This document shows, piece by piece, positions 23,689-64,000 of a DNA stretch of 64,000 bases. A program made the translations under genes and the position numbers. The first letter of the stretch is position 1. The number at the start of each line of letters is the position of its first letter. Origin of the DNA: Syncephalis fuscata (taxonomy: Eukaryota > Zoopagomycota > Zoopagomycetes > Zoopagales > Piptocephalidaceae). The notes under the pieces were generated by a model that worked only from the letters and a program-made list of their open reading frames with translations, was not told the DNA's origin and made no database searches. The stretch spans positions 124,001 through 188,000 of the forward strand of contig JAHLTZ010000026.1 in NCBI GenBank assembly GCA_025786725.1. Reading direction: 5' to 3'.

Positions 23689-26600
23689 ATGAAGCTTTAT
23701 ATTGTCGTTGTCTGCACTCTTCTTGTGGCTTTTTTAGTCAGTACAGCCATGGTGGATGCTAGGCCAAACAGAATTCGTCGTGGTATGTTATAGTAATATA
23801 AATGTGCAAATTAACATACTGACGTAATATTTAATTACTTGCAATATTAGCCGGTAAGTCGTGATTAGGGATCATTGTTCCAGTGCTTACTGTATGTTAT
23901 ACAAATAATTGGTATGATAAATAGTTGGTAAGTGTTGATTGCACATAGCTATTGGTATAGTAATTAATCGTTGTCTTTAATTTAAATGGGTAAATAGCGC
24001 CATTGGCTAAAAGTAGGTTTAATATAAAACAAAAATATTATATAAATGATATCGATATTCTGTATTTATATTAATAGGAGGTAAATAGCAATAAGAATAG
24101 TTAATTTCTTATTTAATCAATACTATTTGCATTATTAAACTAGCGCTATCAAAAAGTAAGTGGTAATCTTTATAGACCAACTATGCGCTAAACATATGTC
24201 ATTAATCGTGTATGTTTAACAACTTGTATTAATAGGATGTAAGTGATATTCTATATCAACTAAATATAGACTAAACACATATTATGTACTGTGTGCGCCT
24301 GATAATTTGCATTAATAGCTTGTAAGTAGTATTGCTCATTAGCAACTATGCGCTAAACGTATGCAATATATCTTATATTTAATAACATGATATTATAGCT
24401 GGTAAGTGGTATTGTATGCTTACTAAATATGCACTAAATATATACCATGTACATTGTGTGTTTAATAACTTGACACTGTAGCTAGTAAGTGGTATTGTAT
24501 ATCGCCCAACTATATACTAAACGTATCTCACAATTTTTTGAATACTTGATAATTTATATTAATAGCCAGTAAGTAGTATTGTATATCAATTAGCAATATA
24601 CTAAACATATGCACTGTTTGTGTTTGATAACTTGATATTAATAGCTCGTAAGTGACATAGCATTCTAAGTAGATATAGATTAAACATATATGATGCATTG
24701 CGTGTAATTTATAATTTGAAATTAATAGAATGTAAGTTGTATTTTATATCAGCTAATTATACGCTAAACACTTGCAATGCACCATATGGCTTTAATAACT
24801 TATAACGACAGCTGGTAAGTGATATTATATATTGATTAGCTACGCACTAAATATATACCGTACTTTGTGCGGGATCAATAACTTGAAATTAATAGAAAGT
24901 AGGTGGTGCTATATGTTAATTAGCTATATACTAAACATGTGTCGTGTATCGTGCGTTTTCAATAACTTGTATTAATAGCTGGTAAGTAGTATTGTATATT
25001 AGCTACATATATATTAATAATGCATCATCCACTGTTTGTATTTAATAACTTGGATTAATAGATAGTAAGTGGCATTATATATGACTAATGATATGCTAAA
25101 CATATATTGTGTACTTTGTGTGCTTGATAATTTTATATTAATAGCTCGTAAGTAGCATGGTATATTAATTAGCCATAGTTTAAATATACATTATGTATTG
25201 CGTATGCCTAATAATTTGAAATCAATAGAATGTAAGTGGCATTGTATATTAATCGGCTGTGCGTTAAACGTATGCAATATATCTTGTGTTTAATAAATTG
25301 GCATTATAGCTAGTAAGTGGTATTATATATTGCTCAGCTATATACTAAGCATATGTCACATATTTTTTATGTTTGATAACCTGCATTGATAGAAAGTAAG
25401 TGACATTATATACAAATTAACTATATACTAAGCATATATCATGCACTTTGTGTGCTCAATAACTTGTATTAATAGCTGGTAAGTAATATTGCATAACAGT
25501 TAACTATATACTAAGCGTATGTTATTCACCTTGTGCGTTAATAACTTGTATTAATAGACTGTAAGTGAGATTATACATTAGCTAATTGGGCACTAAATAT
25601 GCTTTATACATTTCTTGTATTTAATAACTTTCCATTATAGCCGGTAATTAATATGTTATATTAATTACATATATATTAATAACATGCGCATGCATCTTGC
25701 GTTTCCAATAACATGTATTAATAGGAGGTGAGTGATATTTTATATCAGTCAACGATACACTAAATACATGTCATGTACTCTGCGTTTAATGATTTTTGCT
25801 AATAGAACGTAAGTGATGTTGTATATCAATCAACCATGCACTAAACATATGTCGTGCACTCTATGTGCCTAATGCTCACACAAATAGATGGTAAGTGGCA
25901 TTGTATATTAAGCAATATTTTACTAAATATATACGATGTACCACGATACCTAACAATTTCTAATAATAGTTTGTAAGCGGATTTTTTATATTAATTAATT
26001 ATACATTAAACGCGTGTGGTATACTTTCATATTTAATAACTTGACATTATAGCTGGTAAGTTGTATTTTACATTAATCAATTATGCGCTAAACATATACC
26101 ACACAAATTATGCTCGATAACTTGTATTAATAGATAGTAAGTGGTATTTTATAATAATTAACTATATACTAAACATATAATATGTGCTGTGGGTGCTCGG
26201 TAACTTGTATTAATAGCTAGTAAGCAACATTGTATATTCATCAATTATATACTAAACATATGTCATGTATTATGCTTAATAACTTTTATTACTAGATTGT
26301 AAGTTGTATTGTATGTTAATTAATTATGCACTAAACAAATGCTATACACTGTGTGGTCAATGCATTGATATTAATAGCTGGTATGTAGTAATCCACGCTG
26401 ATTAACTATATACTAAGCATATAGCATTCACCTTGTGTGTTTAATACCTTGATGTTACTAGAGTGTAAGTTGTATTGCATGTTAGCTAACTATATACTAA
26501 ATATATATCATACACTTTGTGTATTTGGTAACTTGTATTGACAGGGTGTAAGTAATGTTGAATATTAGTTAATTAGGCATTAAACGCACTTTATACATTT

Positions 26601-28181
26601 CTTGCTTTAATAATTTAAATCATAGCTAGTAAGTGATATTTTATGTCAACCAACTATCTACTAAGCATGTATTATGCATTATTGCATTTAATAATCTGGC
26701 ATTAATAGCTCGTAAGTGATATTATATGTTAGTTTAGTGCGCACTAAATATATGTCATTTACTTTGTGTTTAATAATCCGGAACTAATAGAAGGTAAGTA
26801 ATATTATATATAAATTAAATATACGCTAAACATATACCATGCATTATATTTTAATAATTTATATTAATAGCTCGTAAGTAGCATTGTATATTAATTGAGT
26901 ATGCGTTAAATATATACCGTGCACTTTGTATGCTTAACAACAATATGAATAGTTCGTAAGTGGCGTGGCATATTAACTATATGTATACTAATAATATACC
27001 ATATACCATGCATTATGTTTAATAACTTGTATTAATAGATTGTAAGTGGTGTTGTATACTAGATAGCTATGTATTAAACATAAGCAATACATCTGTGTAT
27101 TTAATGATTTGACATTGTAGCTCGTAAGTGGTATTTTATACCAATTGAATATGCGCTAACTATGCTTCATACATGGCATTTAATGATTTGTGTTAATAGA
27201 GAGTAAGTATCATTATATACCGATTAACTATGCGCTAAATATATGCAATATGTCTTTGTCTAATGGCTTGTGTTAATAGGAGGTAAGTAGTATTATATAG
27301 TAATTATTTATGTACTAAACATATACCATGCACCGTATGTTTAATGATTTGAAATTAATAGGAAGTAAGTGGTGCTATATGTTAATTACCTATATACTAA
27401 ACATATATTATGTACTGTATGTGCTTAATAACTTGCCATTATAGCTCGTAAGTGGCATTATATACTAATCAAATATGCGCTAAGCATATACTATGAATTT
27501 TGAATGCTCAATAATATATCTTAATAGGAAGTAAGTGGCATTGCATATTAATTGGCTATACATTAAACATAAACCATCATTATGCGTATTTAATAACTTG
27601 TATTAATAGAATGTAAGTGATATGCTATATTAAGTAGCTGCTCGTTAAACATATGGAATGTACTACACGCATTTAATAATTCATATTAATAGATAGTAAG
27701 TGATATTACACATTAATCAAACTACAAGCTAAATACATAGCATGCGTTGTGTGTATTTAATAATTTGTACAGTAGACAGTATGTGGTACCTTATATTAAC
27801 CAGTCATGCATTAAACATATGATATACACTGCTTGTTTAATAATTTTTAATAATAGGACGTAAGTGATAATGCATATTAATTAACAATGCGCTAATCATA
27901 TATCATGTACTGTGCGTGTTTGATGACTGTATTAATAGATGGTAAGTAACATTGTATACTAACTGATCATGCACTAAATATATACCATGCACTTTGTGTG
28001 TTTGATGGCTTACATTAACAGTCAGTAAGTGCTACTTTATACTAATTGACTATGCGCTAAATATATACCGTGCACTTTCTGTATTTAATAACTTGCAATA
28101 TAGATAGTAAGTAGGGTTATATAATACTAACTCATATGTTAATCCCATGGCATTATATATATATTCATAAATATAGACTAA
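23689..28181 (+). CDS. Secreted-peptide precursor encoded by one signal-peptide exon and 53 microexons, 51 of them 3 nt
   Basis: Exon 1 (23689-23782) encodes MKLYIVVVCTLLVAFLVSTA MVDARPNRIRR, a clear signal peptide, and ends in phase 1 at G|GTATGT. Microexons follow, given as start:bases. 23851:CCG, 23925:TTG, 23998 (15 nt), 24078:GAG, 24144 (12 nt), 24236:GAT, 24319:CTT, 24399:CTG, 24482:CTA, 24566:CCA, 24645:CTC, 24729:AAT, 24812:CTG, 24896:AAA, 24979:CTG, 25062:ATA, 25145:CTC, 25229:AAT, 25310:CTA, 25393:AAA, 25476:CTG, 25558:ACT, 25641:CCG, 25725:GAG, 25806:AAC, 25888:ATG, 25970:TTT, 26053:CTG, 26134:ATA, 26217:CTA, 26296:ATT, 26378:CTG, 26462:AGT, 26545:GGT, 26626:CTA, 26709:CTC, 26791:AAG, 26871:CTC, 26953:TTC, 27039:ATT, 27121:CTC, 27200:AGA, 27280:GAG, 27362:GAA, 27445:CTC, 27528:GAA, 27610:AAT, 27693:ATA, 27776:ACA, 27857:GAC, 27939:ATG, 28022:TCA, 28104:ATA. 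The last exon starts at 28177 and gives stop TAA 28179-28181. In phase 1 no stop occurs; the product is 92 residues with RR, KR and KR dibasic sites, then a Ser/Thr-rich hydrophilic tail. Function unknown. Confidence 0.8.
23783..28176 (+). repeat. Tandem array of about 82-nt intron/microexon units
   Basis: There are 54 consecutive introns. From the sixth microexon on, unit spacing is 79-86 nt; the first five introns are shorter (63-71 nt). Conserved positions are the donor (GTAAGT in 44 of 54; the rest are GTATGT, GTAGGT, GTAAAT, GTAATT, GTGAGT or GTAAGC), a mid-intron CTAAAC-like box (ACTAAACATAT in many), a TTTAATAACTTG-like box about 13-20 nt before the end, and the acceptor ATTAATAG or a variant (51 TAG, 3 CAG). 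The rest of each unit has diverged strongly. This pattern fits ancient tandem duplication with selection to keep splice signals, not a neutral satellite. Confidence 0.85.
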
Positions 28182-28923
28182 CCAATGCATTCAAGACATT
28201 GGCATTGGTAGTATAACTGGACTGCAAGTTACATATGTTTTAGGTGTATATTCGGCAAGAATCAAGATCATTTGATAGTTCCGTTCAATCTATTTATATA
28301 TCAAGTTCCATCCAGTGCTCCGACTTACTAATCTTTAATCAATGACACCATTATATTGCTAATAAGTTTGTATTTACTTGTACTTATCCGACTATACAAA
28401 CTTTTAGTAATAAACATATGGTTTCATTTTAATTATGCTTGGTCTAATTATAATGCTTATGCTTATGCTTAATTTGTATTTAAAGAGCAGTAAACAAAAA
28501 CAAAACAAAACCATAGCAAGAAATTGAATAAATATGTAGTATAAATCGCAAACATAGATCGGTGTGACTGTAGTAATAGTTCCATTTAACGCACAACTAT
28601 GCCTGTAAACATTGTAGTAATATGTGCTGGAAATATTGTATGCTATAGACAGGCATAAAGTACCTTTGTAATAAAGTAATGTATAACTGCATTTTACAAG
28701 TCAAATTCAGCTAATAACCATAAAACTACAAGTAATAAATTCATTTTGCTATTATAAATATTATTATTCAAGTTCTTTTAATAATTATAATTGAATAAAC
28801 AAATATTACTAATATATTTCGAATTAATTTACAAAGAAGACCCTTCTCTTACTATACTATTTTAACGAACTTATTTTGCTACATCGCATCATATCCGTCA
28901 GTTTAGACAAGTAAAAGCTCCAA
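28182..28923. other. Convergent intergenic region (two 3' ends)
   Basis: AT-rich sequence between the microexon gene (+) and the Erf4-like gene (-). A frame open from 28177 to about 28270 exists if the last microexons were read in phase 0, but phase 1 stops at 28179. No other gene is seen. Confidence 0.45.
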
Positions 28924-37131: not shown

Positions 37132-38635
37132 AGTGGAAAAGGTTTAAACATTTGCTGTCGAAATATAAGAAATAAACGAGTTTGAATTGGCGTGGATAAA
37201 AATAATAATGAATTATTTTAAAGTTATTAAGCCATTGGTTTATCTTTTAATTATAATAATAATGTTAACTAAATAGCTATAAAATAATATTAGCGGAAAA
37301 ACCAACACTTTTTAAAATATAGATAATAATATGTGTATTATATTGAGTGTGTGCTACACAAGTGTTCTAATATATATACTGAGTAATTTCTAGATGTTTT
37401 ATAATTTTGACTTTTAGATTCAACTTATGACAATAATATTATTATTACGTAATTGTCTAAAGTTATTATAGCAACTTATGACGTGTTGATTATTTAATTG
37501 GCACTGTTTAATGTTTATCGTTATTGTTACAAAGAAATAGACGCTACTTTTATTAACCCATTGTTTATAAGTTTAATTTGAATTGTATCATCTAAATTGC
37601 TTTAATAATTTAATAAGAAATGTTACTATAATATCGGTTTTTAATTAAATATTACATTTATTAATTTAAATTTAAAGATTTAATAGTAATAATAATAATA
37701 GTATTAGTGTTTGATGGTTGCAATGGTAATGGTGATTTGCATAGTCATCATTATATGGCTTTTACAGGTGATGGTTCATATTAGTATTTACCTGATAAAA
37801 TAAATACATTTATTGAATTATTGTTATTGATTTGGCTTGATGATTAATTTTTACCGATCTGTTGGATGCGTAATGGAAATGCTTGTCAAGTAGAAATCAA
37901 AGTTTGAAATGATTATAATAAATAGATAGCTAGAAAGGCTGTATAGTACACGCCTAAACCACTAAGGCCAATTGGATTATTTTTTTAGTTTTAGCAGATA
38001 AGCAACTAAACCATTTAAATGCCATTTTTATTAGCATTACTAATGGTTTACATACTTTCTATATCAATACAACAATTATTAAGCCAAACACTTAAGTTAC
38101 AAAGCTCAGAATATTAGAATACGTTGCTTAAAACTTAATATAAGCGCATGCTTTATGAGCTATGTAATGCCTTTTTTATTTGATAAAAGCTCTGCTTAAG
38201 ATATATATGTGGGCCATACACAGGTTTATTACGGTGGATAGCACAGATAATATAGGTTTAGCCATGATTATATAATGTTTGATGCGAACGGGCAAAACAC
38301 CTCTGAGTAATTCTACTGTTATTTAAAGACAGGCCTTTCTTTTATAGATATAAAGGCCTTTCAGAATGAGCCATGAAATTACTCGCTGTAAAACCATCTA
38401 TGAAAAGGCCTGCTTGCAAGTAGCCGAATTGTTGTTCATAAGTCAGAAATAATATCGATGCCATTGATTCTATATAAACCATACGGTTTTGCTTAAACTA
38501 TGTACAATACAAACCATCCACTATCACGCGCGCCATATAATAACAATTTACTTTATTCTTACTATCTTGTCTAACAATTCACGATATTTCTATTTACAGC
38601 TATTAACTAACGATTTCAGTCGATTTACTCATCCA
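37132..38635 (+). other. Intergenic region upstream of the subtilisin gene
   Basis: Very AT-rich, no gene seen. The part nearest the subtilisin start holds three AGGCCT-core words (about 38336-38343, 38356-38363 and 38405-38412), two of them in inverted AAAGG/CCTTT context. They could be regulator sites; this is inference. Confidence 0.4.
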
Positions 38636-41258
38636 ATGAAACCTATCCTTTTAGCCGCTTTATTGCTGGCATTTGCCGCCAGTGACGTGTTGGCTCAAGC
38701 AAAAACACGCGTTCCAAGCCAACCTCCCACTGCTGCCACACCAACCACTAAAGTCAGCACACTCGATAATGCTTTTTTAATTCAGCTGGATGACGCCACT
38801 CAGCAGGCTGCATTCCGTGATAGCTTGACAAAGCTTAGCATTAATTTCCGTGTGCGCTATGCACTTACCGCTACCATGAACGCCATCAGTATCGACACTG
38901 ATAGCAAAAATCTTAAAGTTATCGAGGATGTGCCTGGTGTAAAGCGTATTTGGCCAATTAATCAAGTAGCTGGTCCTGTTGTTCAACGACAGCAGCTAAA
39001 GGAAGACAATCCATTGCCATACTCGCATGGTATGACGGGCGTGGATGTGATGCATACGAAATACAAGGTCTACGGAAAAGGGTTAAGGTCGGTGTCATCG
39101 ACAGCGGCATCGATTACATGCATCCAGCCTTAGGAGGCTGCTTTGGTCCAAGCTGTCGTGTCGCCTATGGGCGGGACTTTGTTGGCAACAATTTCAATGG
39201 CACAACAAGTACCATTAGCCAAAGCGATGACCCTCGCGACACATGCAATGGACATGGTACGCATGTGGCCGGCATTATTGGTGCACACGACGAAGCATTT
39301 CTTGGTGTTGCTCCAGAAGTTACATTTGGTGCCTATAAAATATTTGGCTGCGGCAGATACACATCAACCGATGCCATTAAGGCCGGACTGGATCGTGCCT
39401 ATGCCGACGGTATGGACATTGTGAATCTGTCGCTTGGTGAAACTGGTGGCTGGGCTCAGTCTGATGATGCTATTCTGGCCGAAATACTTGCTCGAAAAGG
39501 CTTGATTGTTGTGGCATCAGCCGGCAACTCGGGAGATGGCGGTCTCTGGGAGGTCGGTAGTCCTTCTGTCGCCCCTAGCGTTTTCTCAGTCGCATCACTT
39601 GATAACTTCAAGTATCCACACCTGGGCTATCTCTTAGTTTGGCAATCGATACCGTGTTTGGTTACTCGGTATCCAATAAGCTTAATCCTTTGAACACGAA
39701 CGCCACAGAGATTGTTGTGGCTGGTCCTGCCGACAACGTATTGGGATGCAGGCCGTTTGGTCCCGAGGTAAATGGCAAAGTTGTATTAATCCAGCGAGGC
39801 AACTGCACTTTCGACATCAAAGCCATGAATGCCGAAAAGGCTGGTGCTGCTGTTGCTATTCTCTACAACAATGAGCCAGGCCCGTTGAGTCCTTCAATCT
39901 CACCAGATATTAAAATTTCAGTATTAAGTATTGAAAAATCCAGCGGTGAAGCAATTATTAAGAGTCTGGCGAGCAATCCAAATCAGAAGATTTTATTTGA
40001 TAAAAATATTATAGTAGAAGTGCCTACGGCAGGCCACTTGTCCGCTTTTTCATCATGGGGGCCCGGCTCCAAGGCCGAGATCAAGCCAGATATTGGTGGT
40101 CCCGGTGGCTTTATCTACTCAACCATTCCGTTGCCAATGGGTAAATACGGCGTCAAGAGTGGTACATCAATGTCTTCTCCATATGTTGCCGGATCCATAG
40201 CACTTTATCTACAAGTTAATGGTATCGATAATAAATTGGGCACTGGTGCTGAGAAGATTGATCGTACTCGTCTACACCAGCTGTTCCAAAACACTGCTCG
40301 TCCCGCCACTGAAGTCAAAAACAACACTCTTATCAGTTCAGTTGCACTTCAAGGCGCCGGTATGCTCAATGTCGAACGTGCCATTTTTGGCACCACGCTT
40401 GTTACGCCATCACGGCTTGCTCTTAACGACACGCAATATCCTGGTAATCACAATGGTGATGCACGCAATCGAACTGTGCGTATTACCAATCTGTCAAAGT
40501 CTGATCGTGTCTACACCGTTACTCACGTTCCAGCTGTAGCTGCACGTGGTTTTGACGCTGATGGCTCAGTAATGTTCCAGCCCGAGACGCGTGACGCACC
40601 AGCCAGTGTTAGCTTTTCATCCAGTCATGTAAAAATTGCCGCTGGTCAAATCAGCAGTATTGATGTGTTAATCACGCCACCTAGTGCGCTGCCTGAAACT
40701 GAGAAATGGGTATATTCGGGTTATATTGTATTTGATCCAGCCGCAAACTCAAACAACACGCCATCAAGCGATGCCATATATGTACCATACCTTGGTATTA
40801 AGGGACGTTTAAGCGATATACATGTTCTAAAGCAGAATCCTACCATCGAAATGGCCGATCAACTAACAAAGCAGCTTATTCCACCATCAAACACGACAAC
40901 GCCCTATGTATTGACTGGCCATGAAGTCATGACTGTGTCGTATGATGTCGAATATCCTAGTTTACACGCAAAAACGCGCATATATGATGCCGCTACCAAA
41001 AAAGTAGTTGGTGCCATTCCTGGATCTTCCCAAGACAGGCTTATCCGAAGACAGCCCAAGTCTCCTCCTAGTAATACATTCAAATGGGCTGGCGGTGTGA
41101 CGATAAACGATAAAGCCACCTTTAAAGGTAGCAATCTTACAAACGGAATTTACTACTTTGAATTAATGGCACTTCGTCCCTATGGAGATGCCGCAGTGGA
41201 TAGTGATTATGATATTTGGCGCTCACCTAACGTCACGATTAATATTACTAAAGCTTAA
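38636..41258 (+). CDS. Secreted subtilisin-like serine protease (S8) with PA domain
   Basis: Signal peptide MKPILLAALLLAFAASDVLA, then an I9-type propeptide region. Catalytic residues are all present: Asp in GVIDSGIDYMHP, His in GHGTHVAGIIGAH, Ser in GTSMSSPYVAG. A protease-associated (PA) domain is inserted between the catalytic His and Ser (about 39690-40020, GKVVLIQRGNCTFDIKA), and an Fn3-like region follows the catalytic domain, as in extracellular vpr/C5a-peptidase-like subtilases. It would degrade extracellular proteins. Two frame slips are seen, at about 39078 (one more G restores GKGVKVGVIDSG) and about 39635, both best read as sequence indels since all catalytic motifs are intact. 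No introns are evident, unlike most neighbours. Confidence 0.88.
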
Positions 41259-44571: not shown

Positions 44572-45369
44572 ATTGTTAGCTTTGCGTTTGTCCAACTTTT
44601 TCGGAAATAGCAATTGTCTACATGGGCTGCTTCAATTACTAATAGGACTTGCAATAACCTGTTTTTTGTATTACCTATTAATGATTATTGTTGTGCTTGA
44701 GCAGCTATGGATTAAATTTACTGAGTACCAATAAAGTGGGATTGTAAGGTTTAAAATTCTTAATACTATTTCATTTATGTTATTTGTATATAAAGATGTT
44801 ACTTATTAAATAGTTTTAATAATGGAATATATATGTGAAAGTGCGTTGCAATTTCCTAGTAAATATGGGAGTCACATATTTTATTTACAACAGGCCTAGA
44901 GTACACCTATAATTTGCTTATACAGTTATGACAGGTAATGATTTATATATATATAGACACTTGCTCGTGTTTTTTGAAACATTAGCCTTTTCATTAAGAA
45001 ATATTCAGAGAATTTAGTCACACAATGGAATCACGCCATAGAATAGGACCGTGGTAAACAGGCAATACCACTGAGTGCAGCATGTAATCGATGCTGCGAC
45101 CTTTTTATTTGACTTGACCAAATAATTACTTGTTTTTTTAGAAATAACAGTACTAACTTTTTGTCAAGTATAAATACACGTATCAATATTTGTATTTCAA
45201 TAGTACAATACTTATCATATTTACTTTGCTTTACTCTTCCCTGGAATAGCTAGTTACGACATAACACATCTTAAAAACTTGTTAACGTATTTTACGCAAC
45301 CACCAACTGCTTTAGCCACTCTGCATATCTAAGCTTAACAAGACAAAGCATCACTTCAAGCAAATCAAC
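44572..45369 (+). other. Intergenic
   Basis: No gene supported. A perfect 7-bp hairpin (GCAGCAT, loop, ATGCTGC; about 45078-45098) followed by a T-rich run resembles a structured RNA end, but nothing else supports an RNA gene. A C/T-rich leader precedes the M28 start. Confidence 0.35.
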
Positions 45370-46601
45370 ATGCAGCCACAAGTCAGCGCTTTTATTTTAT
45401 TAGCTTTAGCAGCAGCAGCTTACGTACATGCCGCACCAGCCGAGTCAACATTTGCCAATCGCTTCCCTTCTCTTCCATTCAAACATACCCAAATAAGCAC
45501 CAATGGCTTTCCAATGAACGAGAAAGGCGAAAGCTTTCACCTGATCCAGCAAGGAGTAGACCAGTCACCTGTGTGGCTGTCCGAGTCGCAAGTTTGGGAT
45601 ATTGAAAAGACCCAACGTAGATTCATGGATGTCACTTTTCATCCAGATATGATGGAAAAAGCAAATACACTTCATCGTGCTCAAAAGCTAAACTCTTTGA
45701 GTAAAGACATCCAAAGATTTGCTAGAAACTCGCCTGTTGTTCTTTCTCATAAAGATCAGGTGGCTTCTATTGTCGACAGTTGTAATACCACGTTAATGAA
45801 AACGACATTGGAAAAAATGGTAACTTTTTTAATCGACGTTACGATAGTGAACATGGAGCCAATGCATCCAAGTGGCTGCTTTCTAAAGTACAAGAAGTTG
45901 CTAGCAATGCCAAGCCTGGGATCGACGTTAAAGTAATTGAATTTAAGCATCCTTTTATTCAATCTTCAGTTATTGCTCGAATTGAGGGTCAACAAAATCA
46001 AGAGGAAACGGTCATTATTGGTGCTCATCTGGACTCTACCAATAGCAAGGATCATGCGGGTCGAGCTCCAGGTGCCGACGACGATGGATCCGGTACTGTG
46101 TCCAGCTTTGAAGCATTTCGTGCTTTAATTGATTCTGGATTCAAGCCAAAACGTCCAATCGAATTTCACTGGTATGCTGGAGAAGAAGGCGGTCTTTTGG
46201 GATCACAGGATGTTGCGTACAGCTATCAGCAAGCCAATCGTAAGGTAGCAGGCATGCTGCAGCTAGATATAACCGGCAGACCCTTCAAAGACCGGCCAAA
46301 TGAAATAGGCATTATCAACGATTATGTTGATCCAAATCTTACAATTACACTCAAAGAGATAGTTAAACAGTATTTGCCGGATGTCACCACTAAAGATGGT
46401 TGGTGCTATTATGGCTGCTCGGACCATTATTCATGGAATCAAACTGGTTACCCAGCAGCTCGTTCCTTTGAGTCGGCAAAGGCAAGCTATAATACTGATA
46501 TGCATACGACTGAGGATACTATTGACAAGGTGAATTTTGATCATGCACTTCGTTTCACCAAAATAGCTGTAGTATTTGCAGCTGAGCTATCGCTTGAGTA
46601 A
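45370..46601 (+). CDS. Secreted M28 zinc aminopeptidase (leucine aminopeptidase type)
   Basis: Signal peptide MQPQVSAFILLALAAAAYVH, cleavage likely near AA-PAE. After a propeptide, the M28 core shows the expected zinc ligands: His in IGAHLDSTN, bridging Asp in GADDDGSGT, catalytic and metal Glu in GEEGGLLGSQ, Asp in LQLDITG and His in DMHTTEDTID. The pair of cysteines in DGWCYYGCSDH is a typical M28A disulfide. It removes N-terminal residues from peptides outside the cell and would complement the upstream subtilisin. The frame slips in the T-run near 45826; one more T gives TFFNRRYDSEHGANASKW, a strongly conserved stretch, so a one-base sequence error is likely. No introns. Confidence 0.88.
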
Positions 46602-62354: not shown

Positions 62355-62966
62355 TTATGGAATACGAAATCCAATCTTTAGTTTTGAAAAGAGCTGTGGG
62401 CCATAAGTGGGACTTTGATGGCAAGGTATGATGTAGAATTGAGTACTATCGTCATTGCCTGAAAGACAGTAATCAGTCGCCAGATTACGAAGCCAGCACC
62501 GTTTATAATCATTACAGCCAAGACGCCACATTTGTTTACTATCAACTCGACTTGAGTCGGCCGGGCATCGATTTACTTTTACTGGACTATGGGATACCAT
62601 GGCTTCAATACCCAAGCAAAGGTCTTCGCCAATACGGATAGGCTGATAACCTTGTGTAAAATTGCCATCAAACTTCCAAGTTTGGCCGGGACGCCAGTAA
62701 TTCTTTGCACATTCATCAGCCACGACTGAATAGTTGGCACCAAGTCCTTCAGCGTATAAACAACGGGTGCTATTAGTGTTGCCTGTATAGCCAGAGGCCG
62801 AGTATTTTGGCGGAGGCAGTTGGCATTTAACATCCGGAAAATTAAGAAGAAATGGCTCTATTCCTGCTTCTGTGGCCGGCACAGAAGTCAGTACAAGTAA
62901 AACCAGTCCTACAAATAATAGAGATAGCTTTACAGCTAAAGAGCTTGTTGTAAAACGACTAAACAT
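62355..62966 (-). CDS. Secreted protein with ricin-B-like (beta-trefoil) features
   Basis: Signal peptide in the first 35 residues (LAVKLSLLFVGLVLLVLTSV, then PATEAG). The body has ten or more cysteines and two Q-x-W motifs (GQTWKFDG, KQMWRLGC) with the spaced pattern LCLGIEAM..VKVNRCPAD, as in ricin-B-type carbohydrate-binding trefoils. A second C-L-x-G motif (DYCLSGNDD) and FYIIPCHQ support repeated trefoil subdomains. No enzymatic domain is attached, so this reads as a small extracellular lectin-like protein. It has no introns in the coding part. The family assignment is by motif only. Confidence 0.62.
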   Translation of the reverse strand: MFSRFTTSSLAVKLSLLFVGLVLLVLTSVPATEAGIEPFLLNFPDVKCQLPPPKYSASGYTGNTNSTRCLYAEGLGANYSVVADECAKNYWRPGQTWKFDGNFTQGYQPIRIGEDLCLGIEAMVSHSPVKVNRCPADSSRVDSKQMWRLGCNDYKRCWLRNLATDYCLSGNDDSTQFYIIPCHQSPTYGPQLFSKLKIGFRIP

Positions 62967-64000
62967 GATTAATTATAAACAGACAATGGAGAGGGATTTA
63001 ACTGTAATAAATTAATGGTATTAGAGGCGTGGCTGGGTGGATGTTTATATAAATGATTGTCCTATCGTTTGTATGAGTATAATGGTAACGAGCAAGCGTG
63101 GACTATTAGGTATAACAAACAATTAAGAACAAAGAGATAAGTGACGACAGGCGAGTAAAGGCAAATAGCCGACAATGGATATTAGTTGGTTAATTGGTTG
63201 GCTTTAACACATACACGGATGTGCAATACACTATAGTTACTGAACTAGCAGCACTAACCAGAGTAATCGAAATAATAGAGGATTGCTAAAACAAGGAAGA
63301 TGAAGAAAAAAGAATGAAGAAAGAAGACAGCATCAATAAATATGGAACTAAATGGAATGGCAACGAGAGTGGCATGCGGTTACATTGACAAAGGAAACTA
63401 CACTCAAGGATTTACATACTGGTGACACGAGCAAACAGGAATATGGATCCAACTTGAATTGTATCATGTTAACATGTGACAATGTCTGAACAGCTTTTAC
63501 TATCAAAACCTGTTTTGTTTAAACTGGTATTAGTCACCATAGTTTATTAAATAAAAACAATAAAAAAACAAGAAATAAGATATGGCTATAGCTAAAGTAT
63601 TAGATTGTGGAATGTAATTACTGCAAATGCAAGGTGTTAAGTATTTGAGTAAAAACATTTTTAAATTAATTACAATTATTTAGTGTGAACAAAACTGGAT
63701 AATTTATAATTACCAAATATGGTAATGCCTATTATTAATAATAGTATTTCTATTATTAGTATCATATTTAATAAACAATTAACATATAAAGCTGACTATT
63801 TTATTAATCAAATAAACAAATTGCTATTTTTCCTATTCATTTGTAAATGTTAATTGTAATACTTTATGCATAATAGCTATGATTGTGATGTGGCTCCAGT
63901 GTCTTTATATTTCTAACAGCTATTACCATTATAAAGTGTAGCATTTTCTATTTATAATATCTATGGCCACCTTAAGTGCTTTCAATGTAATTAAGTGCTA
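62967..64000. other. Intergenic to window end
   Basis: Promoter side of the lectin-like gene, then AT-rich DNA. Contains the inverted repeat ATTACCA-AATA-TGGTAAT (about 63709-63726), the same as at 41726. No gene seen. Confidence 0.4.

Follow-up and report, generated by a model that had tools for sequence, protein, structure and literature searches.

We analysed a 64,000-nucleotide (nt) stretch of the genome of the fungus Syncephalis fuscata (the window, G000:C179:124001-188000, in an assembly of 28.95 Mb and 299 contigs), and we describe a gene at positions 23689-28181 of its forward strand in which a putative signal-peptide exon is followed by a long array of exons of exactly 3 nt. The gene comprises exon 1, 53 internal exons and a last exon, separated by 54 GT..AG introns of 63-83 nt (mean 78.0), and its internal exons are exactly 3 nt long in 51 cases, 15 nt in one and 12 nt in one. 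Its features are as follows, with each coding assignment predicted from the joined exons.

23689..23782, + strand: exon 1 (94 nt), predicted signal peptide and start of the pro-region, encoding MKLYIVVVCTLLVAFLVSTAMVDARPNRIRR plus the first base of the following codon
23783..23850, + strand: intron 1, phase 1, donor GTATGT and acceptor TAG
23851..23853, + strand: 3-nt exon CCG (many paralogs begin their internal exons with CCG, CTG, ATG or ACG)
23925..23927, + strand: 3-nt exon TTG
23998..24012, + strand: 15-nt exon CGCCATTGGCTAAAA, giving with the adjoining exons AVAPLAKR, a putative dibasic Kex2-type site
24078..24080, + strand: 3-nt exon GAG
24144..24155, + strand: 12-nt exon CGCTATCAAAAA, giving with the adjoining exons ALSKR, a putative second dibasic site
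24236..28106, + strand: array of 48 3-nt exons with introns of about 80 nt, the first exon being GAT (24236-24238) and the last ATA (28104-28106); with the last exon it would encode the mature peptide SSATTQSETDTQSKTDSGEHVSDTNSEWSTQALHSQRGTRKYNRHVNN
28177..28181, + strand: coding part of the last exon, AC plus TAA (stop at 28179-28181)
28182..28440, + strand: 3' untranslated region, end approximate, resembling those of paralogs by inspection

Joined, these exons form a coding sequence of 279 nt for 92 amino acids that contains no internal stop and closes with the TAA at 28179-28181. A preliminary description of the window had claimed this exon and intron anatomy, the TAA at 28179, an open chain in the phase of exon 1 and a fully spliced coding sequence of 279 nt, and every number in it was reproduced. 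The predicted product reads MKLYIVVVCTLLVAFLVSTAMVDARPNRIRR-AVAPLAKR-ALSKR-SSATTQSETDTQSKTDSGEHVSDTNSEWSTQALHSQRGTRKYNRHVNN, and the codons of its tail are split such that base 1 is the end of one exon and bases 2 and 3 are the start of the next; TCTGAAACTGATACTCAATCTAAAACTGAC is an example of joined coding sequence that crosses several exons. Many of these features recur at other loci (L) and in other proteins (P). Counterparts of the 15-nt exon, CACCATTGGCTAAAA or CACCATTGGTTAAAA, are found in L021, L022, L024-L027 and L042, and the annotated protein P0011 contains RRAVEPLAKR, comparable to AVAPLAKR; the ALSKR site has its counterpart in L009, L011 and L005, which read VSKR with a 6-nt exon CTAAAA. 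At the 3' end, paralogs also show an acceptor followed by two bases and TAA (e.g., AG|AATAACC, AG|ATTAACT, AG|CATAATC), and the intronless L045 carries GCATAATCGATG in one piece where the window gene has its last-exon junction. Further downstream, CATTCAAGACATTGGCATTGGTA and later stretches through GTAATAAAC.TATGGTTTCAT of the untranslated region are also present in L036, the first part also in L045 and L048.

Splice signals are highly regular across the window gene. Donors read GTAAGT in 44 of 54 introns (otherwise GTATGT in 3, GTAGGT in 2, GTAAGC in 2, and GTAAAT, GTAATT and GTGAGT in 1 each), acceptors read TAG in 51 and CAG in 3, and a branch-like motif (CTAA[ACG] or TTAA[AC]) lies 37-46 nt upstream of the acceptor in 45 of 54, compared with a mean of 5.4 and a maximum of 14 when intron interiors were shuffled (500 runs). 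The set is of U2 type (GT donor, branch motif, AG acceptor), with GT..AG at the ends of all 54 introns. Evaluating the spacing of these signals, we counted 47 occurrences of the pattern [CT]AG-N3-GTA[AT]G[TC] within the array; 500 first-order Markov simulations gave a mean of 0.39 and a maximum of 4, and the remaining window held only 2 on the + strand and 3 on the - strand. Within the array, the distance from [CT]AG to GTAAG[TC] was 3 nt in 45 cases and 12 nt in one, with nothing else between 0 and 15 nt. The same spacing dominates the assembly, where the strict pattern TTAATAGNNNGTAAGT (TTAATAG-NNN-GTAAGT) has 1992 matches versus 1 for its reversed control, while replacing NNN by 0-2 nt gives 16 matches versus 19 in the control and replacing it by 4-30 nt gives 165 versus 85. 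Given that the strict pattern captures 308 of 704 parsed 3-nt exons, we infer by proportion about 4500 3-nt exon units in the assembly, duplicates included.

Reading the joined exons in the phase set by exon 1 (phase 1) revealed 0 stops in 613 codons across 23 representative genes, whereas shuffling exon order within genes 1000 times gave a mean of 19.5 stops (range 10-31). For all 32 genes with long chains, the count was 0 in 766 codons against a shuffled mean of 25.2 and a minimum of 14. Phase 2, by comparison, contained 57 stops in the 23 genes and 81 in the 32, in line with its own shuffles. Cysteine codons in phase 1 numbered 43 in the 23 genes against a mean of 25.0 and a maximum of 36 in 500 exon-order shuffles, and in base composition exon positions 1, 2 and 3 are like codon positions 2, 3 and 1, respectively, in two intronless paralogs. 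Earlier phase-1 counts of 2 and 3 stops were rejected, as they had come from omitting a 6-nt exon; none are left once all exons of a multiple of 3 nt are kept.

The window gene belongs to a family spread through the genome. Searches with its exon 1 gave 40 scored places of 187 candidates, with the exon 1 of another member 40 of 223, and with the protein P0001 150 of 313. We examined 43 loci (the window gene, L005, L009-L044 and L045-L049), the parsed loci being those reached through exon 1, and chains of at least 10 introns were present in 32 of them, the window gene included; L045 and L048 are intronless. A parser that applied no frame rule returned 687 internal exons from 37 loci, of which 648 were exactly 3 nt long and 676 were multiples of 3. 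The 32 genes hold 774 introns with a median length of 78 nt, and of 41 intron-bearing loci, 37 have a stop-free exon 1 that ends in phase 1. Candidate exons of 10 and 15 nt in L038 (all four) and one of three in each of L031 and L032 were rejected, each being really a 3-nt exon plus a GCAAGT or GTAATT donor, and two 15-nt exons remain in each of L031 and L032. GCAAGT donors occur in 11 family introns, for example in L031, L036 and L038.

Two recurrent stretches and some near-identical copies were also seen within the family. A stretch ATTTTAC(AC/GT)G(G/A)GG... lies inside or at the end of the arrays of L010, L016, L030 and L037 and in part in L042, continues in L010 and L037 with ...CGTCCCCCGTG..., and looks like a small inserted element that breaks the chain. 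A second stretch, (A/C)ATTTGCGCTGCTTCCCACTAT(A/T)TTTGGAC (in L044 AATTGGTGCTGCTTTCCACTACATTTGGAC), is located just after the final parsed acceptor at seven loci (L010, L022, L024, L037, L042, L044 and L049). On contig C1 of G000, the arrays at 476294-478090 (+) and 531562-533338 (-) have nearly the same exon runs in opposite orientation about 55 kb apart, and identical family places are found on C236 and C273, which suggests that the assembly contains recent duplications or haplotype copies.

Relatives of the family in which the coding sequence is uninterrupted offer a direct comparison with the joined exons. In L045, which encodes P0001 and is located on contig C236, and in L048, the 5' leader, signal peptide, cysteine-rich mature peptide, TAA and family 3' end are contiguous. 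The mature peptide starts with CxxC-xxx-C in both of these and in the spliced readings of L035, L036, L044 and L047, while L034 has CxxxC and L046 has CxxC in the spliced mature part. BLASTP similarity among the cysteine-rich mature peptides is weak (L047 to P0008, E 0.001; L036 to P0001, E 0.18), so these pairs are linked by their shared cysteine frame and not by overall identity. A closer correspondence was found for the annotated protein P0010, whose coding region is uninterrupted at C157:436190-436444 (L050): the joined 3-nt exons of L040, 14 exons over 1058 nt of DNA, match it at 33 of 39 nt and share the peptide CKC[QR]D[ED]DG[NY]CTSC, against at most 26 of 39 when the exon order of L040 was shuffled 300 times. 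Of the 150 places scored with P0001, 43 extend beyond residue 45 (4 with internal stops) and the rest end at residues 31-43; such ends are no proof of introns, as the P0010 loci show, which are intronless and whose matches nevertheless finish at 38 in the same search.

A search of 5.77 billion proteins with the spliced product of the window gene returned one relative. This protein, P0005 (E 3.9e-14, with a query that had one misplaced exon boundary), is a 59-residue open reading frame on a 1604-nt contig from the source 'lgn', which we take to be the Logan assemblies of public reads. It matches the array-encoded tail without gaps at 40 of 47 residues, and has 27 4-mers in common with the spliced reading, whereas the six unspliced array frames have 0-1. 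The comparison also decides one boundary near 27776, where CAG|TAGACA (reading KYIDRHV; 39 of 48 residues, one gap) was rejected for TAG|ACA, which reads KYNRHV as in P0005. The uninterrupted relatives indicate that the pieces of the array are joined as predicted, and three independent lines (the stop counts, the intronless paralogs and P0005) point to chains that would be joined and read in the phase of exon 1.

Taking these lines together, we consider it very probable that the window locus is a protein-coding gene for a secreted, Kex2-type-processed peptide that is built one residue per 3-nt exon through sequential, intron-defined splicing. Exon 1 would provide the signal peptide by which the product enters the secretory path, and the short exons would supply Lys-Arg sites, such that a Kex2-type protease cutting after RR or KR would free a short peptide. 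The spliceosome would take out the introns of about 80 nt successively by intron definition, because the GTAAGT donor, the TAA branch motif and the TAG acceptor all lie inside the intron; as a 3-nt exon is too small for two complexes, removal would be stepwise, intron by intron, with each splice setting the next donor beside a growing exon. Arrays may grow or shrink by gain or loss of whole intron-plus-codon units, and the intronless members may derive from spliced mRNA or represent an older form. The preliminary description had proposed that each residue beyond a signal-peptide exon has its own splice junction in an array open in the phase of exon 1, and this proposal now extends to 31 further loci with chains of at least 10 introns, agrees with the 0 stops in 613 codons, and is backed by the intronless paralogs and the outside protein P0005. 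Its expectation that gene finders would report no more than exon 1, if anything, is approximately right. In the annotated proteins P0002 and P0004 the prediction continues into introns, their tails resembling translations of unspliced array units (19 of 29 and 16 of 27 residues, respectively, at the best-matching loci), and public annotation thus misreads at least part of the family.

Several observations weigh against this interpretation. Phase 0 is also stop-poor (6 of 640 codons in the 23 genes, 8 of 804 in the 32), and stop counts thus discriminate phase 1 from phase 2 better than from phase 0; phase 0 is rejected because of the stops that it still contains, exon 1 and the homologs. Nine of the 43 loci (L010, L014, L015, L029, L030, L037, L041, L042 and L043) gave chains below 10 introns or no chain, some of them with inserts, 11 of the 687 parsed exons are not multiples of 3, partly through parser artefacts, and in 4 of the 41 intron-bearing loci (L017, L021, L028 and L033) the parsed exon 1 is either out of frame or interrupted by a stop. 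Splicing of the array is itself deduced from homology and selection, that is, at the level of sequence. P0005 may come from genomic DNA of a relative and not from mRNA, and its N-terminus (MNHISFQTIFAA) is unlike that of the window gene; it may belong to a relative with one ordinary exon or to a partly processed RNA, either of which would support the spliced reading, though only the latter would be a transcript. Searches of the S. fuscata genome gave no continuous copy of the window mature peptide, empty answers that carry little weight, and no match was obtained there with the spliced mature peptide of L046 or with P0005. As a separate observation, L017, L021, L028 and L033 are likely decayed copies that stand beside intact ones.

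Other explanations have to be weighed against this evidence. A first rival view treats the whole array as a single removable intron or a decaying intron-like satellite, such that only exon 1 (with the last exon) matters and the GT and AG dinucleotides are relics of tandem duplication. It would account for the likeness of the units (Tandem Repeats Finder units of 82-84 nt) and for the fact that skipping all internal exons stays in frame and reaches the same TAA. We regard it as very improbable, given the lack of stops in the phase of exon 1 next to usual numbers in phase 2, and given an exon order that spells a protein present uninterrupted elsewhere. Donors and acceptors also appear less variable than the remaining intron in diverged paralog pairs, for example in L035 and L036 (9 of 186 donor, 4 of 91 acceptor and 465 of 1893 other intron positions differ), a comparison biased by its restriction to positions with the same label in the two genes. 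Still harder to credit is the removal of the spacers from DNA by programmed elimination: intronless copies do exist in the same assembly, but those observed sit at other loci, and the spacers hold GT donors (GTAAGT in 44 of 54), branch-like motifs at a set distance in 45 of 54 and TAG or CAG acceptors.

Two further alternatives accept splicing and differ in its use or its origin. Exons might be joined with variable inclusion, each locus yielding many in-frame variants by skipping, since dozens of similar units and splice signals invite errors or choice and, with each of the 53 internal exons in the window gene having a length divisible by 3, skipping never shifts the frame; we judge this unlikely, as exon-order shuffles yield stops, so that free mixing is not stop-proof, and the 47 consecutive ungapped residues matched by P0005 suggest one main product. 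Alternatively, introner-like elements, which are known in fungi (PMC4457414; papers are cited here and below from excerpts of their text), may have entered an ancestral intronless gene at every codon without growth by tandem units. Intronless members and P0005 exist and the introns share sequence, which favours such mass insertion, but random events would hardly leave 48 consecutive exons exactly 3 nt long and all in phase 1, and L012 and L013 differ by whole-unit blocks; we take this history, too, to be rather unlikely.

We examined the evolution of the arrays through pairs of related loci. In the close copies L012 and L013, best-matching units are found at offsets 0, 3-4, 8, 3 and 0 along the array, and because the two arrays differ by whole-unit blocks, the peptide seems to gain or lose residues one intron-plus-codon unit at a time; duplication or loss of one unit gives one residue more or less and never shifts the frame. 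A global alignment of this pair (differences at 55 of 135 exon and 245 of 3275 intron positions) had seemed to indicate exon hypervariability or diversifying selection, a view that we rejected as an artefact of register shift, the exons being mostly identical once units are matched by their flanking introns. The same cause may explain high exon differences in other diverged pairs (e.g., 46 of 81 in L035/L036). In close pairs, exon and intron differences were of similar order or exons were somewhat higher, with respective values of 3/33 and 30/840 (L018/L019), 5/33 and 50/822 (L018/L033), 2/36 and 40/822 (L019/L033), 1/27 and 16/874 (L009/L011), and 0/30 and 52/856 (L018/L020). Among 153 pairs of units within genes whose introns are 2-5% apart, 140 of them from L012 and L013, a fraction of 0.54 of exon bases differ; intron conversion could be the source of this contrast, and positive selection is not claimed. 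Single-residue cassettes, open to duplication, loss and change of individual residues, might further serve as a diversification device across many, perhaps hundreds of loci, generating in-frame peptide variety through rearrangement and perhaps exon omission at splicing, with retrocopying fixing successful versions in the form of intronless genes, a possibility that we hold tentatively and regard as open to serious doubt.

The predicted products share the layout of processed secreted peptides. The window gene shows a putative Kex2-type pattern of signal peptide, RR, and then AKR and SKR before the mature peptide, and probable sites of this kind are found as PLAKR or SKR in L005, L009, L011, L025 and L042 and as PLVKR in L022 and L024, with PLAKI in place of PLAKR in L026 and L027. 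Its mature peptide is rich in serine and threonine and free of cysteine, while the cysteine-rich members of the family look like disulphide-stabilised miniproteins. None of 8 family proteins reached the Pfam cut-off, a PDB search with the P0001 mature peptide only gave two chance-level matches (E 0.62 and 0.71), and Rfam had no match within the window. Syncephalis fuscata is placed in the Piptocephalidaceae (Zoopagomycota, Zoopagales), and Piptocephalis and Syncephalis are mycoparasites (PMC10386755). With this lifestyle and with secretion, we infer an extracellular role as a mycoparasitic effector or a defence peptide, directed at or used within the fungal host, or directed at competitors. 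Around the gene, the window carries ordinary genes for a subtilase, an M28 peptidase, a MoeA-type protein, a kinase and an NF-X1 finger protein, and nearby lie secreted-type hydrolases, the subtilase with PA and Fn3-like domains (38468-41258) and the M28 peptidase (45316-46601), as well as a ricin-B-like lectin (62355-62972).

To place the family among known systems, we compared it with published genes that contain very short exons. Schistosome micro-exon genes (MEGs), like the window gene, combine a long 5' exon that in most cases carries the signal peptide with short, mostly symmetrical exons mid-gene and a secreted product; the family shares this plan, with a last coding piece of only 5 nt in the window gene. 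MEG microexons are shorter than 36 bp and 26 of 33 are divisible by 3 (PMC4671649), and MEGs differ in being animal genes with varied exon lengths, no tandem intron-plus-codon array being described in the excerpt. Homology to MEGs was not found in three protein searches, which returned only S. fuscata proteins and one 'lgn' open reading frame. The exons of aphid bicycle genes are tens of nucleotides long. Like the family described here, bicycle genes are fast-evolving putative effectors whose numerous small exons share one phase, and a 'megacycle' gene contains more than 100 microexons (PMC9168663). They differ in being insect genes, in having almost all internal exons in phase 2 where our array exons are in phase 1, and in that the excerpt describes no tandem unit structure (PMC9168663). 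Single exons of 1 or 3 nt are reported in Arabidopsis APC11, Drosophila homothorax and Fusarium CYP621A (PMC4674806, PMC7392893, PMC12940212), with intron definition and stepwise removal proposed for the Arabidopsis 1-nt exon (PMC4674806); these cases indicate that the spliceosome uses exons of 1-3 nt, as the window gene would need, but in these reports they occur one per gene and not dozens in a row across a gene family. Fungal introners or introner-like elements and stwintrons resemble the S. fuscata family in that many introns of a genome share common sequence, whereas the introns described here lie in head-to-tail arrays with codon-sized exons, unlike those in the excerpt (PMC8469720).

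No arrays of codon-sized exons in general, nor any for Syncephalis, were found in a library of 5.39 million open-access papers, which leaves most subscription journals outside, and within this scope the statement of the preliminary description that no long array of 3-nt exons was known stands. We rate the system as new, since no counterpart was found for its unit of one intron plus one codon, its tandem array and its rule of one residue per exon; if any gene with many microexons is counted as one kind, the family is a variant of that kind. Its gross plan is like that of MEGs and bicycle genes, and the family may thus add a third, separate instance from an organism that lives at the expense of others.

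Several consequences follow for splicing and for the biology of this fungus. In the literature covered here, exons of 1-3 nt stand singly, whereas the genes described here would hold dozens of consecutive 3-nt exons each, and probably thousands genome-wide. With 54 introns in one short mRNA, the handling by the spliceosome of exons below the size for exon definition is directly testable. The family also exposes a set of mycoparasite secreted peptides that public annotation has partly misread, and its arrays suggest a route by which a protein may lengthen and change in single-residue steps with no risk to its reading frame.

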